NCBI GenBank assembly: GCA_030145055.1
Contig: JAQYWK010000004.1
Location: forward strand, 1-64,000
Source of the DNA: Desulfovibrio sp.
GTDB lineage: Bacteria > Desulfobacterota > Desulfovibrionia > Desulfovibrionales > Desulfovibrionaceae
DNA length: 64,000 bases
Direction of reading: 5' to 3'
Position 1 is the stretch's first letter. Each line of letters starts with the position of its first letter. Below, one piece after another: positions 30,223 to 48,603 of the stretch. Under the pieces are notes generated by a model. The model did no database searches and was not told the DNA's origin. It was given only the letters and a program-made list of their open reading frames with translations. A program made the translations under genes and the position numbers.

Positions 30223-32697
30223 ATGATAAAAAAAAGAAAGTTTACTTTAAAAAAGAAAAACGACCGCAAAAGTCTTGTTCGAGATATCAGCGATCATGTT
30301 GTTTTTTCCCTTAGTAAAGAACTCGGTGATGCTAGTGAGCATGACATGGGAAAAGCGTTGGCTCTTGCCATGAGGGACCGTCTTGTCGAGCGCATGATCA
30401 TGACGCGCGACAGATATCGTGAAACGAAAGCTAAGCGCATGTACTATTTTTCTATCGAGTATCTTCTTGGGCGCTGTCTAGGTAATTCCCTGTGTAATAT
30501 GGAACTTCTGGAACGGTGCGAGGAGCTATTTAAAGAGATCGGTTATGATCTTGACGAAGTTCGTGAAAGTGAGCGAGACCCTGCGCTCGGTAATGGCGGC
30601 CTCGGACGCCTTGCGGCTTGTTTTTTAGATTCCCTTGCAACGCTCGATATGCCCGGCTGTGGTTATGGCATTCACTATGAATATGGACTGTTTCGGCAAA
30701 GTATTCAAAATGGATATCAGAAGGAATTGGCCGATTACTGGATGACCGAAGGCATGCCGCTGGAAATTGCACGGCCAGATCATTCTGTAATTATTCCTTT
30801 ATACGGTAGGGTTGAGAATAGTCTTTCTCCTGATGGTCAATATTTGCCCATGTGGATGGACTGGGAAGATTTGATCGGTATTCCATACGATATTCCTATC
30901 GTTGGTTTTGGCGGAAAAACTGTTAACTATCTCAGATTGTTTGCAGCTAAATCTTCCGAAAATTTTGACATGGAAATTTTCAATCATGGTGATTACATCA
31001 GAGCTGTCCAGCGTAAAGTTGAATCAGAGATGGTCACAAAGGTTTTATATCCGAGTGAATCTGTTTCATTCGGTAAAGAGCTACGCCTAATTCAGGAATA
31101 TTTCCTTGTAGCCTGTGGCTTGAGAGATATTACCCGTAGGTTCTCCGCTCAAAATAAGGATTTCTCACAATTTGCTGATTATGTGGCCATTCAGATGAAT
31201 GATACTCATCCGGCATTGACTGTAGTTGAACTTATGCGCTTCCTCGTGGACGAAAAGCGTATTGAGTGGGGAAAGGCTTGGGAAATAACCACGGCTACCT
31301 GTGCTTTTACAAATCATACGTTACTTCCAGAAGCACTTGAAAGCTGGTCGGTTGAACTGTTTGAAAAGGTTCTTCCGCGCCATCTGCAGCTGATTTACGA
31401 GATTAACAGTCGCTTTCTAGCTGGTGTGGCAAAAAAATATCCCGGTAACGCTGAGAAAATTAAGAGCATGTCGTTAATTAACGAGCATGGTAAAAAAGAA
31501 ATTCGTATGGCGAACCTTGCAGTTATTGGTTCTCATTCGGTAAATGGAGTTTCAGAACTTCATTCTGATCTCGTACAACGCAGGCTTTTCCCTGATTTCT
31601 ATGAAATGGACCCCGATAAATTTAATAATAAAACAAACGGCGTAACTCCTCGCCGCTGGCTTCTTAAGTCTAATCCGGCGTTATCTAAGCTGTTGATAGA
31701 TTCTGTCGGTAAGAAGTGGATCACTGACCTTAGTGATTTGAAACGGATAGAGGAATACGTTGATGATTCTGCTTTCCGCGAAAAGTATACTGCCGCGAAA
31801 CGGACCAATAAAATAATTTTGTCAGATTTCATAAGAAGTACTTTGGATATTAAAGTTAATCCTGACTCAATTTTTGATATCCATGCTAAGCGTATACACG
31901 AGTATAAGCGTCAGTTGCTCAACGTTTTACATATTATACATCTGTATATTGAACTGGTTGATCATGGTAAAGAACCACTTTGTCCGAGAACTTTTATTTT
32001 CGCAGGAAAAGCCGCTCCGGGATATTGGGAAGCTAAACAGATAATCAAGCTCATACATAGCGTTGGTGATGTTGTTAATAAAGATCCGCGCGTTAAGGGG
32101 CTGATAAAGGTCGCCTTTATTCCTGATTACCGCGTGTCACTTGCTGAAAAAATGATCCCTGCTTGTGATTTGAGTGAACAGATTTCAACCGCGGGAATGG
32201 AAGCTTCCGGTACAGGAAACATGAAGTTTGCCATGAACGGCGCTCTGACCATTGGAACTCTGGACGGCGCAAATGTTGAGATGCGTGAGGAAGTCGGGGC
32301 TGATAATTTCTACCTATTCGGACTCAGGCAGGATCAAGTTGAAGAAACTTTGATGGAAAAATCTTATCATCCGCGCGGTATTTACGAAAAATCTGAGGAT
32401 GTTCGTCAGGTTTTGGATGCGTTAGCGTCCAGTAGATTCTCTCCCGGAGAGCCGGGCATGTTCCGCTGGGTTGTAGAGAAGTTGTTGACGGACAATGAAA
32501 AGTATATGCATCTGGCTGATTTTAAGGAATATACTGATACTCAGAGGATAGTCGATATTGAGTATGCTGATCCTGCTATCTGGGTTCGGAAAACAATTTT
32601 GAACACAGCACGTATGGGCAAATTCTCGACGGACAGGACTATGCGCCAATACGCTGAGGATATTTGGAATATTAAGGCTCTAAAAGATATTGAATAG
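30223..32697 (+). CDS. glgP: Glycogen/starch/alpha-glucan phosphorylase
   Basis: An 824-residue GT35 enzyme that releases glucose-1-phosphate from alpha-1,4-glucans; the full family length is present. It shows YFSIEYLLGRCLGNS, DPALGNGGLGRLAAC, NDTHPAL, TNHTLLPEALE, NKTNGVTPRRWLL, and the PLP and phosphate region EASGTGNMKFAMNGALTIGTLDGANVEM. AAGGAG precedes the ATG. It stands alone, with no glycogen synthase beside it; malQ, a partner in maltodextrin use, lies 12 kb away on the other strand. Confidence 0.96.
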   Translation: MIKKRKFTLKKKNDRKSLVRDISDHVVFSLSKELGDASEHDMGKALALAMRDRLVERMIMTRDRYRETKAKRMYYFSIEYLLGRCLGNSLCNMELLERCEELFKEIGYDLDEVRESERDPALGNGGLGRLAACFLDSLATLDMPGCGYGIHYEYGLFRQSIQNGYQKELADYWMTEGMPLEIARPDHSVIIPLYGRVENSLSPDGQYLPMWMDWEDLIGIPYDIPIVGFGGKTVNYLRLFAAKSSENFDMEIFNHGDYIRAVQRKVESEMVTKVLYPSESVSFGKELRLIQEYFLVACGLRDITRRFSAQNKDFSQFADYVAIQMNDTHPALTVVELMRFLVDEKRIEWGKAWEITTATCAFTNHTLLPEALESWSVELFEKVLPRHLQLIYEINSRFLAGVAKKYPGNAEKIKSMSLINEHGKKEIRMANLAVIGSHSVNGVSELHSDLVQRRLFPDFYEMDPDKFNNKTNGVTPRRWLLKSNPALSKLLIDSVGKKWITDLSDLKRIEEYVDDSAFREKYTAAKRTNKIILSDFIRSTLDIKVNPDSIFDIHAKRIHEYKRQLLNVLHIIHLYIELVDHGKEPLCPRTFIFAGKAAPGYWEAKQIIKLIHSVGDVVNKDPRVKGLIKVAFIPDYRVSLAEKMIPACDLSEQISTAGMEASGTGNMKFAMNGALTIGTLDGANVEMREEVGADNFYLFGLRQDQVEETLMEKSYHPRGIYEKSEDVRQVLDALASSRFSPGEPGMFRWVVEKLLTDNEKYMHLADFKEYTDTQRIVDIEYADPAIWVRKTILNTARMGKFSTDRTMRQYAEDIWNIKALKDIE

Positions 32698-44671: not shown

Positions 44672-46183
44672 TTAATCTATTCGGCTGGTACGGCCGAATA
44701 GTTCTGTCATTTCTCCTAGACGCTCCCTGATAAGCCTTGTCAGTTGGCCGGGCATAAGTTTCCAGCCCCAGTTGCCATCCGCTTCTCCGGGGACATTCAT
44801 GCGTGCTTCTCCGCCCATATTAAGTATGTCCTGTGCTTGAATGATGCAGAGGCAACCAACACTAGACATCAATATTCTGATAAGTTCCCACGATACCTTT
44901 GATTCATCCATCCAATTATGACCGAGATATGCCAGCATATTTTTTCGGCTAACTTCATCCGCGTCTATATTAAACCAGCCACGATTTGTATTGTTGTCGT
45001 GAGTGCCAGTATATACGACGGAATTGCGCCTGTGGTTGTGCAGCGCATCTCCGCATACTCCTATGTCATTACCAAAGGAAAATTGTAGAATGCTCATGCC
45101 TGGCAATTGAAATCTGTCTCTCAGGTAGGCCACATCAGGAGTTATGTGGCCTAGGTCTTCGGCAATAATTCGCAAACATCCTTCCTCGCAGGAAAGCTTT
45201 TCAAATAACTTGTGTCCCGGAGCGGGAACCCAGTAGCCGTCTATTGCGGATTCCGCATCTGCAGGGACCTCCCAGTATGCGGAAAACCCTCTGAAATGGT
45301 CGAGCCTTGCCCAGTGGTATAACCCAAGGTTGTGCTTAAGTCTGCTGATCCACCAGCCGAATCCGTCTTGCTCAAGTACATCCCAATTAAAGACGGGATT
45401 TCCCCAGAGCTGGCCTGTTTCGCTGAAATAGTCTGGCGGAACACCTGCAACTACTTGCGATTTTCCGCTTTCATCGAGTTTGAAAATATGACGGTTTGCC
45501 CATACATCAGAGCTGTCGTGCGTGACATAAATAGGAATATCTCCGATCAGTTCAACTCCAATTTCAGTTAAATGATCACGAAGTTGCCCCCATTGACGGA
45601 AGAAAATCCACTGACAGAATTTAACAAATAAGATTTCTCGCGCGAGAAATTCGCCCCAGTATTTCATTCCACTTTCTGTGCGGTCACGGATGTCTTCCGG
45701 CCACATGGTCCAGTTGTCACCGTTGAAATGCAGCTTAAGGGCTGTGAAAAGGGCAAAATCATTAACCCAGTGCATGTTGTCCCAAATAAATTGAGAAAAG
45801 ACCGGATCATTTAATAAGTTATTTGCCACGCGAGAGAATGCTTTACGTAAAAGAGTCTCTTTAGCTCGTGCCGCAGCGTCGAAGTCTGCTTTATTTGAGC
45901 CTGGTATTATGAATTCTTCGATTTCATTTGCTTCCAATAGCTCGTACTCAACCATCAATTCTGGGCTGATAAGCAAAGGGCTTGCCGCGAACGCAGAAAA
46001 TCCGGAATATGGTGAATTGCAAAGTTCGCTTGAAGTAGGAGTGATAGGCAGAACCTGCCAGAATCTTTGTCCTGCTTCAGCTAAAAAGTCAGCAAATTTA
46101 TATGCTGCCGGTCCAATATCTCCAACTCCGAATATAGAGGGCAGTGAAGTAAAATGTAAAAGTATTCCGCTGGACCGTTTCAT
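44672..46183 (-). CDS. malQ: 4-alpha-glucanotransferase (amylomaltase)
   Basis: A 503-residue GH77 enzyme that moves maltodextrin segments between glucans and releases glucose. The catalytic residues are in place: the nucleophile Asp in ARLDHFRGF, the acid/base Glu in IAEDLG and the stabilising Asp in TGTHDNNT. MKRSSGILLHFTSLPS is the typical start; ATG 46183 with AAGGAG upstream was chosen over the upstream frame. It lies 124 bp downstream of the TreZ-like gene on the same strand and is probably co-transcribed. With glgP it can break down glycogen or maltodextrins. Confidence 0.95.
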   Translation of the reverse strand: MKRSSGILLHFTSLPSIFGVGDIGPAAYKFADFLAEAGQRFWQVLPITPTSSELCNSPYSGFSAFAASPLLISPELMVEYELLEANEIEEFIIPGSNKADFDAAARAKETLLRKAFSRVANNLLNDPVFSQFIWDNMHWVNDFALFTALKLHFNGDNWTMWPEDIRDRTESGMKYWGEFLAREILFVKFCQWIFFRQWGQLRDHLTEIGVELIGDIPIYVTHDSSDVWANRHIFKLDESGKSQVVAGVPPDYFSETGQLWGNPVFNWDVLEQDGFGWWISRLKHNLGLYHWARLDHFRGFSAYWEVPADAESAIDGYWVPAPGHKLFEKLSCEEGCLRIIAEDLGHITPDVAYLRDRFQLPGMSILQFSFGNDIGVCGDALHNHRRNSVVYTGTHDNNTNRGWFNIDADEVSRKNMLAYLGHNWMDESKVSWELIRILMSSVGCLCIIQAQDILNMGGEARMNVPGEADGNWGWKLMPGQLTRLIRERLGEMTELFGRTSRID

Positions 46184-46307
46184 AGAGAGCTCCTTTTGAC
46201 GCCAATCTGGGCAAGGCATCAGTAACTATACCCTAACAACATCTCAGATCATGGGGGTATGTGTCCAGCAACTTAGTCTATGGAGCTAGCGAGAAACCGT
46301 CTTCTGC

Positions 46308-48122
46308 TCAAATAAATAGCGGGGTATGCATATACAATGCGAAGGATAGCGGAGATAATTCAACTTCACTATTTTTAGGCATTATTCTTTCAAGCGGTGG
46401 ACCGTAGCCCCCGTGTGTTCGTGATGCGCTGTTTAGTTCCATTGTCCATGGCCCATCCGGCAAATATTCTGCAAGGTGATCCCCAGTCGCAACTCTATTA
46501 AAATTGTAAACAATCGCTACGTATCTTTGGTTACATGATGAAGGATTCCGGATCATTAGGATTAAACCTGGTTTAATTTCCTGTACCTGACATCTGCTGT
46601 GACAAGGTTCGTTAAGCGTCGGGTGCTCACGTCTCAATTGTAATAACTTTTTGTAGAAATTAAACATCAACTGACCTTGGTCGGAATCTAATTTGTTCCA
46701 GTTGAGTCGGCTTTTTGTAAATGTGGATTCACTCTCCGGGGGGGCGGAGTTGTTGATGGATACCGGGAACTGGAATTTATTGCTGTCAGAAAAATAATGA
46801 AAAGGAGCTGTTTCCCCATATTCTTCGCCCATGAAAAGCATTGGCGTGTAGGGAGAAAGGATAGTCATTCCGGCGCAAAGTTTGGCCGCTTCATTCCCAT
46901 TTTCCAATATCTCTCTGTTCATGCCATGGGATGTAGTGGTTTGAGTGTGGCTTTGTGAATATACTATAAATTTGCATCCGGGCAGTTCGTGCTTGTTACT
47001 GCCATGAGCTCTTTTGTGAAATTTGGACATTTGTCCCCTGAAAGCAAATCCGTGCTGCATAGTAGCCAGTAGTTTTTCCGGTGAAGTATAGTCACAGAAT
47101 ACTCCATCACTATCGCCGGTCAGGCGGCAATGCATAGCGTGGTGGAAATCATCATTCCATAGCGCGTCAACTCCAAAGCCTCCTTCAGAGATGGGCATTA
47201 CTGGGCGTGGGGAATTATGTTTGTTATCTATAAGCAGGACACATGTTCTATTGTTTTCGTGTTCAAATTTTCTGATAGCTGATGACAGCTCTTCGAGAAA
47301 ATGTACGGGACGTTGATCATTAATCAAGTGACTGTTGGTGATGCGGACACCGTCTGCGTGGTAGTCACTTAGCCATGACAGGGCACAGTTAAGGTAAAAA
47401 CTTCTAACATCGTCACTGTGTTGCTCGTCAAAATTAAGAGCCTTTCCCCAATCTGTATTGTGCGAATCGGTGAAGAACGGTTCATAAGCTTCGATTATAT
47501 CTTCAACAAAGCAGTGCTTGCAAAATGCCACATCTAAAACAATGGCTATAGATCGTTTGTGGCATTCTCTTATTAAAGTTTTGAGATCATCAGGTGTTCC
47601 GTAATTGTTATGAACTGCGTATGGGAAAACAGTGTCATCTCCCCAGCCTCTGGTTCCGGATAATTGGGAGACTGGCATCAGTTGTAAAGTGTTAATGCCA
47701 AGCTCTGATAGGTGATCAAGTTTAGAAGTAATTCCTTCAAAGGTTCCCTCTTCACTGAATGTGCCGACGTGAGCTTCGTATATAACCAAATCTTTCATAG
47801 AAAGGCCGGAAAAATTGTCTCCTTCCCAGTCAAAATTATGATGATTAACAATTGCAGAGGAAGAATTCAGCCCACCAGGTTGCCATGATGAAGCTGGATC
47901 CGGAATATTTTTAGATCCATCAAGTGTATACGAATAATATAAATCAGGAGCAAGATTATCTATTTTAATCTCGTGGAATCCATTTTCTTGGCGATCAAGC
48001 ATAAAATTATTGTTCGGGTCATTATTAAGTGTGATTACAGCGGTTTTTATGTGTGGGGCAAATAGTCTGAACGTGCAATTTCCGTTTTTATCAACATGTG
48101 CGCCAAATTGTTCTTTTTTCAT
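46308..48122 (-). CDS. TreZ-like GH13 protein, probable pseudoenzyme
   Basis: A 604-residue protein aligned throughout with maltooligosyl-trehalose trehalohydrolase. It has an N-terminal CBM48-like domain (FRLFAPH), EAHVGTFSEEGTFEGI near 116, a central barrel, ILSPYTPMLFMGEEYGE at 421-436 and a C-terminal beta domain. The GH13 catalytic residues are changed: the nucleophile Asp of RLDAVHAI is Thr262 (RITNSHLI), the acid/base Glu of AESDLNDPR is Asp299 (IDNKHNSPR), and the stabilising Asp of NHDQ is Thr393 (SHTQ). Region I VYNH has become FCKH. Hydrolysis is therefore improbable. The reading frame is intact and full-length, so it is not a decayed gene. It precedes malQ on the same strand; no treY is nearby. 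The GTG at 48134 is an alternative start. Confidence 0.85.
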   Translation of the reverse strand: MKKEQFGAHVDKNGNCTFRLFAPHIKTAVITLNNDPNNNFMLDRQENGFHEIKIDNLAPDLYYSYTLDGSKNIPDPASSWQPGGLNSSSAIVNHHNFDWEGDNFSGLSMKDLVIYEAHVGTFSEEGTFEGITSKLDHLSELGINTLQLMPVSQLSGTRGWGDDTVFPYAVHNNYGTPDDLKTLIRECHKRSIAIVLDVAFCKHCFVEDIIEAYEPFFTDSHNTDWGKALNFDEQHSDDVRSFYLNCALSWLSDYHADGVRITNSHLINDQRPVHFLEELSSAIRKFEHENNRTCVLLIDNKHNSPRPVMPISEGGFGVDALWNDDFHHAMHCRLTGDSDGVFCDYTSPEKLLATMQHGFAFRGQMSKFHKRAHGSNKHELPGCKFIVYSQSHTQTTTSHGMNREILENGNEAAKLCAGMTILSPYTPMLFMGEEYGETAPFHYFSDSNKFQFPVSINNSAPPESESTFTKSRLNWNKLDSDQGQLMFNFYKKLLQLRREHPTLNEPCHSRCQVQEIKPGLILMIRNPSSCNQRYVAIVYNFNRVATGDHLAEYLPDGPWTMELNSASRTHGGYGPPLERIMPKNSEVELSPLSFALYMHTPLFI

Positions 48123-48249
48123 ACTTGCTCTCACAGAGATTTATTTGTTTTCAAAATTAGTTCGGGTTTTAATGGAGACATATTTGTTTCGGACCGCCTT
48201 TTGCATGTTAATGAGTACTCGCGTCACTCAACATCATAGGAGGCAGACC

Positions 48250-48603
48250 ATGGACAACTTCACTAAGTCTAACACCGCTGAGGAACGGGTGCAGATCGCT
48301 CAGGTTATGTCTGGCGAAGAATCAGTACTCCACGAACTTGACTTTCAGGATGTAGCCATTTCTACAGTCGCAGTTTCTACCTTAAGAAAAGCGGCATCAG
48401 CAGTGATGGAAAGATTTCTACCTGGATCCCGTCCAGAAAAACTTACCGATTCTCAGGCTGTAGCCTTTTTTATAGATCGCGTTTTTTGGGATCAAGATTC
48501 AAAAGGACTGATTCTTTGCGCTGATGTTGCTACACGCAGTTTCTGTATTCCTATCCCCAGCGATCATTGGCATATGAAAACTGATCTAGGTACTATTCAA
48601 TAG
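48250..48603 (+). CDS. Small unknown protein
   Basis: A 117-residue soluble protein starting at ATG 48250, with AGGAGG about 7 nt upstream; the frame extends further back to 48010 but overlaps the start of the TreZ-like gene without any ribosome site. The sequence is mostly helical, with EERVQIAQVMSGEESVLHELDF and AVAFFIDRVFWDQDSKGLILCADVATRSFCIPIP. I recognise no family. It diverges from the TreZ-like gene, so a shared promoter region may control both. Confidence 0.65.
   Translation: MDNFTKSNTAEERVQIAQVMSGEESVLHELDFQDVAISTVAVSTLRKAASAVMERFLPGSRPEKLTDSQAVAFFIDRVFWDQDSKGLILCADVATRSFCIPIPSDHWHMKTDLGTIQ

Follow-up and report, generated by a model that had tools for sequence, protein, structure and literature searches.

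A TreZ-derived protein without its catalytic residues is retained by selection in a genus of Desulfovibrionaceae

Throughout one genus of the Desulfovibrionaceae, a relative of maltooligosyl-trehalose trehalohydrolase (TreZ) is retained without the residues with which that enzyme cuts its substrate, and this genus-wide retention suggests that it now serves sugar storage in a new way, other than as an enzyme. The reading preferred here, with a probability of roughly 0.6, is that the protein is a TreZ-derived pseudoenzyme that has taken on an accessory, non-catalytic role in glycogen metabolism. The gene lies in a 64,000-nucleotide stretch of a Desulfovibrio sp. genome (contig JAQYWK010000004.1, positions 1 to 64,000), referred to below as the window, and was compared with its counterparts in 16 relatives, giving 17 genomes of the genus. 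Coordinates of the features discussed are collected in Table 1.

Table 1. Positions in the window of the TreZ-like gene, of selected residues and of associated genes
Feature	Position	Strand	Remark
TreZ-like pseudoenzyme gene	46308..48122	minus	604 codons (604 aa) from the ATG at 48122 to the stop at 46308; alternative GTG at 48134
FCKH, residues 200-203, region I, for VYNH	47514..47525	minus	
Arg260, region II	47343..47345	minus	kept in 16/17
Thr262, codon ACC	47337..47339	minus	at nucleophile Asp, Sulfolobus D252
Asp299, codon GAT	47226..47228	minus	at acid/base Glu, Sulfolobus E283
His392, region IV	46947..46949	minus	kept in 17/17
Thr393, codon ACT	46944..46946	minus	at stabilising Asp, Sulfolobus D377
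C-terminal stretch, residues 496-559	46446..46637	minus	conservation in the genus above that in ordinary TreZ clades
Spacer, TreZ-like gene to malQ	46184..46307	minus	if malQ starts at 46183
malQ, 4-alpha-glucanotransferase (GH77)	44672..46219	minus	catalytic motifs intact
Glycogen/alpha-glucan phosphorylase	30223..32697	plus	TIGR02093, 1120.9 bits; about 14 kb from the TreZ-like gene

A preliminary description of this DNA had reported a full-length, uninterrupted TreZ-like frame, and this was borne out by the TreZ profile TIGR02402, which matches the protein nearly end to end (residues 16-542 against profile positions 1-538 of 545) at 502.8 bits, a score below the curated cut-off of 538.8 bits. 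The closest solved relative is the Sulfolobus TreZ, both in a phmmer search (3vge, E 1e-110; 1eha, E 1.9e-110) and with a profile built from 16 sequences of the genus (E 1.4e-140). Identity with a set of 101 ordinary TreZ sequences, made up of 21 from the same family and the best 80 matches of a wider search, is 29-38%. By these matches, the window gene belongs with TreZ inside GH13.

The catalytic roles in the Sulfolobus enzyme fall to D252, E283 and D377 (PMC3716775, excerpt). Counted along the rows of the phmmer alignment with 1eha, T262 of the window protein stands on D252, D299 on E283 and T393 on D377, and every one of the 101 ordinary TreZ sequences has D, E and D at these three positions. 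The residue numbers first given for the replacements are thus correct, counting from the ATG, and the replacements themselves are confirmed by the alignment. The reported change of VYNH to FCKH in region I is alignment-dependent, in that MAFFT sets VYNH on AFCK (199-202) while phmmer opens a gap and H203 stays on the His. The window protein is very probably dead as a TreZ. The wider statement that all three carboxylates are replaced holds for the window genome but not for the genus, in which the nucleophile alone is gone from every genome. More specifically, the nucleophile column contains Lys in seven genomes, Asn in six, Thr in two and Ser and Ala in one each, with Asp in 0 of 17; the acid/base column contains Gly in nine, Asp in four, Asn in two and Ser and Glu in one each; and the stabiliser column contains Asp in seven, Glu in seven, Thr in two and Arg in one. 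Of the substitutions that might be fixed among relatives, therefore, loss of the nucleophile Asp is, whereas the acid/base Glu persists in one genome and the stabilising Asp in seven.

The distribution of this form is narrow. Each of the 17 genus genomes has exactly one TreZ-like match at E 1e-30 or better, and in the order as a whole 57 of 348 searched genomes have a match at E 1e-60, with 17 matches inside the genus and 51 outside it. Fifty of the latter carry D/E/D, and the remaining one, which is cut before the third column, has D and E. Orders beyond this one were sampled through the best 80 matches of the wider search, all of which are ordinary TreZ. Within what was searched, the columns place the dead form in this genus and nowhere else. 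The genus proteins form one clade (SH-aLRT 100, by a quick method), and the proteins of two further genomes, G014 and G024, branch beside it in the tree on long, unresolved branches.

The substrate of TreZ is made by TreY. Among family members with ordinary TreZ, this partner passed the cut-off in 16 of 18, and among other members of the order in 15 of 17. It did so in none of the 17 genus genomes, where the search returned weak GH13 cross-matches that reached no more than 35.6 bits (cut-off 498.65); three control genomes passed. A TreY-TreZ pathway in the genus is rejected on this count. Nor did a search of the window's genome give a second, active TreZ, the other match there being the branching enzyme GlgB. 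Loss of TreY is not by itself fatal to TreZ, since four genomes whose TreZ is intact likewise had no TreY match: G014 (L157) and G024 (L149) of the same family, and G189 and G191 of another. G014 and G191 are drafts of more than 400 contigs, and it is possible that the TreY-less genomes with intact TreZ are intermediates using another substrate, or simply incomplete drafts. The simplest course of events would begin with the loss of TreY, after which the TreZ substrate would no longer be made; the nucleophile would then have been lost once, before the genus radiated, and non-catalytic residues would afterwards have exchanged freely at the old catalytic sites.

The gene bears the marks of selection. 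Its frame is uninterrupted in 16 of the 17 genomes, the exception being G154, whose draft assembly comprises about 100 contigs and whose copy has one in-frame TGA. Two methods gave dN/dS values of 0.08-0.18 in the three close pairs with unsaturated dS, out of eight TreZ-like pairs in the other five of which dS was saturated or failed. The same three pairs gave 0.04-0.08 for MalQ and 0.11-0.14 for a neighbouring GT2 gene. The TreZ-like gene is under selection that is looser than on malQ and about like that on the GT2 gene, and because the latter is similar, dN/dS shows selection but nothing special. The product is almost certainly a functional protein under selection. Two marks of a GH13 pseudoenzyme are found here, namely membership of an enzyme family without its conserved catalytic residues and maintenance by selection. 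Simple decay is rejected, given that all 17 genomes carry the gene and that the frames and substitution rates are as described.

Constraint on the protein has also been redrawn. Ordinary TreZ has 93 columns with conservation of at least 95%, and in 33 of them the residue is kept by no more than 8 of the 17 genus sequences. Active-site regions account for 23 of these 33 (out of 47 conserved columns there) and the rest of the protein for 10 (out of 46; Fisher p 0.009), the active-site regions, like the regions in the rank comparisons below, being chosen by the analyst. The correlation of site entropy between the genus and ordinary TreZ is r 0.37 (0.34 without G093), compared with 0.82, 0.83 and 0.85 in control clades, although cross-alignment of the two sets, which share about 35% identity, could explain part of the low value. 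The controls were cyanobacterial, same-family and Bacteroidota sets with mean pairwise identities of 0.59, 0.52 and 0.54, respectively, that of the genus being 0.57. Outside the active-site regions, r is 0.45 in the genus versus 0.80-0.84 in the controls. By rank, the active-site regions are relaxed (mean rank 0.59 versus 0.26-0.29 in controls; p 4e-10 to 5e-10) and residues 496-559 are tightened (0.50 versus 0.74-0.76; p 4e-8 to 8e-7). The latter result is less exposed to the alignment caveat because it is based on conservation within the genus. Region VII and the barrel start rank as in controls, the N-terminal domain taken whole has no tightening in the genus, and relaxation of the DDFHH region is not clear-cut (0.39 versus 0.26-0.41). 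These patterns indicate that constraint has moved from the old active site to the C-terminal domain and some other segments. Newly fixed residues include C246, C294 and C507 (16/17) and R510 and N526 (17/17), each present in at most 6% of ordinary TreZ as aligned. The three cysteines, at 1-5% in ordinary TreZ as aligned, could have a metal, redox or structural role. The view in the preliminary description, that this is a retained pseudoenzyme and not a product of simple decay, is well supported by the genus-wide loss, the intact frames, the low dN/dS and the redrawn constraint.

Other explanations of a retained, altered TreZ have to be weighed against the same evidence. The dead barrel might serve as a glucan sensor, its former cleft still taking up a maltodextrin or trehalose that it then signals or delivers in the manner of a lectin. 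Arg260 and His392, which by the GH13 family pattern we take to be -1 subsite residues, are nearly or fully invariant in the genus (Table 1), and the window's own subclade has W225, the -2/-3 Trp, in four of six members. At the +1/+2 subsites, the window protein keeps D324, D325, H328 and F368, with V341 in place of Tyr and H369 in place of Arg, and the DDFHH region, as noted, has not clearly relaxed. His328, which corresponds to the trehalose-recognising H332 of Deinococcus (PMC3716775, excerpt), is present in 6/6 of the window's subclade and 0/11 of the others. Across the genus, however, most contacts are lost or variable: the His of region I is kept in 1 of 17 sequences, W225 in 4, His328 in 6 and the +2 Tyr at position 341 in none, while the loop that in Sulfolobus carries two -3 subsite residues (same excerpt) has shrunk to only four residues in 7 of 17, and the active-site regions as a whole are relaxed. 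By these counts the old cleft is eroding, though the window's own subclade has kept more of it, and for this reason a cleft-binding sensor is treated as a rival to the main reading and is considered unlikely. The maltodextrin binding at the old site that had been suggested earlier is weakened, since much of the pocket ranks among the less conserved portions of the protein, and what speaks for it is the retained Arg and His.

It is also conceivable, if improbable, that another residue took over catalysis, as has been proposed for the amylase BmaN1. Lys-Asp stands at residues 262-263 in 7 of the 17 genomes, with Asp263 in 10, an arrangement described in the available part of PMC5347038. According to the same source BmaN1 retains its acid/base Glu, whereas the genus has lost this residue in 16 of 17 genomes, with Gly in nine; the window protein has Thr-Asn instead of Lys-Asp, and a catalytic role is at odds with a nucleophile site at which members of a single genus carry five different residues. 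A relic of the lost TreY-TreZ pathway, decaying slowly and having no present function, would account for the lack of TreY above the cut-off, the stop in one copy and the faster evolution of the TreZ-like protein relative to MalQ. It is very hard to reconcile, however, with 16 intact frames at protein identities that fall to 0.35 within the genus, with the dN/dS of the close pairs or with the fixation of new residues, and is accordingly thought highly improbable.

The preferred reading, that of a non-catalytic accessory protein, would place the TreZ-like product within the glycogen pathway that the genus encodes. A GT5 glycogen-synthase-type gene is present in all 17 genomes, as are phosphorylase genes, of which there are two strong matches in 16 genomes and one in G093; one of the two in G152 contains a stop. 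At E 1e-5, each genome has two GH13 genes, the TreZ-like gene and a second one, with a third in G140, and the second in the window's genome was identified as GlgB (988.8 bits; cut-off 741). GDE_C debranching enzymes were found in 0 of 17 genomes. With regard to branch removal, searches that covered GH13 and GDE_C gave neither a GlgX/isoamylase-type GH13 nor a GDE_C enzyme alongside GT5 and phosphorylase. The TreZ-like protein could be an adaptor or regulatory subunit of the remaining pathway of GlgA, GlgB, phosphorylase and MalQ. In that role it would be expected to attach to another protein, or to glucan, with the C-terminal domain among the surfaces involved, and the likeliest partner would be MalQ or GlgB. 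That MalQ is the direct partner is plausible but tentative, and it is more speculative still that the protein organises glycogen turnover as a bacterial counterpart of plant ISA2 derived from a trehalose enzyme, for example by attaching MalQ or phosphorylase to glycogen or by restraining GlgB.

The gene neighbourhood is consistent across the genus. MalQ is encoded next to the TreZ-like gene in 17/17 genomes (16 relatives and the window), and its three catalytic motifs are identical in all of them. On the opposite side, each of the 16 relatives has a match to orf48010, although in G150 it is a fragment located where a contig ends. Because orf48010 is as constant a neighbour as malQ, adjacency alone names no partner, and the earlier idea of a scaffold or regulator for malQ may be regarded as a guess. 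Furthermore, a second subclade has a MalQ about 80% identical to that of the window and a TreZ-like protein about 50% identical, so that the two proteins are not evolving in step. The frame at 48010-48603 diverges upstream of the TreZ-like gene, and its homology in many relatives begins well within it; the true gene is therefore probably shorter, with a start near MDNFTKSN. The frame has no Pfam or NCBIfam match, its matched parts are 57-94% identical across the genus, and a conserved block lies between it and the TreZ-like gene.

On the other side, the true start of malQ is probably the ATG at 46183, downstream of the listed start. The window reads MKRSS from this position, after AGGAG, and ATGAAACG stands at the malQ start in 14 of 16 relatives (G007 is readable to ATGAAA and G140 not that far). 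Between the stop codon of the TreZ-like gene and the malQ match there are 74-157 nt, and a pair TGGACA...AATATG/GATATT was seen by eye in many of the spacers. A consensus scan of the window's minus strand at 46184-46307 gave no promoter-like or terminator-like site, and the window spacer stretch has no Rfam match. The spacer of G093 (L139, 8796-8994, minus) contains a hairpin, GAGCCTGCCCTG...CAGGACAGGCTC, followed by a T-rich tail; it is the sole strong hairpin among the 17 spacers, and the stretch folds at -48.7 kcal/mol (z -2.8). It is absent from the output of the terminator scan, and two promoter-like sites were placed in or near this spacer. With so stable a hairpin separating the TreZ-like gene from malQ, their co-transcription in G093 is doubtful. 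In ten relatives (G151, G156, G048, G154, G105, G152, G140, G129, G155 and G117), the spacers conserve arms of the form TTGCYCTGC...GCAGAGCAA-like that could pair beside the malQ ribosome-binding site. Over 8 pairs in these 10 genomes there was no compensatory change, and the window's own subclade has a related left half only.

A literature search gave no match joining 'maltooligosyltrehalose trehalohydrolase' and 'pseudoenzyme', and none for Maridesulfovibrio with trehalose or for Desulfovibrio salexigens with polyglucose. No TreZ pseudoenzyme report appears, by title, among the matches listed, most subscription journals lying outside the search, and the available part of the review PMC11046441 presents TreZ as an active enzyme only. 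A TreZ-like match in this genus should be taken with caution as a sign of trehalose synthesis. The described non-catalytic GH13 protein of storage metabolism is ISA2 of plants, to go by the accessible text on it, and the genus protein would add a bacterial case with a plausible cause in the loss of the partner enzyme TreY, with 17 genomes and with a measured shift of constraint away from the active site and onto other surfaces. The question of how a dead enzyme is recruited becomes directly testable in bacterial storage metabolism.

Compared with TreZ itself (GH13; Sulfolobus 1eha/3vgf, Deinococcus 2bhu), the window protein is related over its whole length but is without the nucleophile and the acid/base residue, its pocket is eroded, its loop is shortened and a search of its genome gave no TreY. 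A scan of the neighbourhoods of ordinary treZ genes (23 loci, of which L146 and L151 gave no result, probably because an overlap filter removed their TreZ frame) identified canonical pairs in G014, where treZ is followed by malQ, and in G211 of another family, where the order is treS-mak, glgB, treZ, malQ. Because both share the gene order of the dead genus, the arrangement may be old. Unlike in the genus, the TreZ proteins of G014 and G211 have all three carboxylates; TreY is encoded elsewhere in G211 and was not found in G014. BmaN1 is an active GH13 amylase with an aberrant triad, in which Lys then Asp stand at the nucleophile and the acid/base Glu is kept (PMC5347038, in part). Seven genomes of the genus have the same Lys then Asp, but Lys262 and Glu299 occur together in none of the 17, and the window protein has neither Glu nor Lys-Asp. 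As described in the excerpt of PMC12510319, ISA2 of green plants and algae is a GH13 protein that has lost its catalytic residues, is kept by selection and forms complexes with ISA1. The genus protein is likewise a GH13 relative without catalytic residues that is retained by selection; ISA2, however, pairs with its active paralogue ISA1, whereas the search of the genus gave no active TreZ paralogue.
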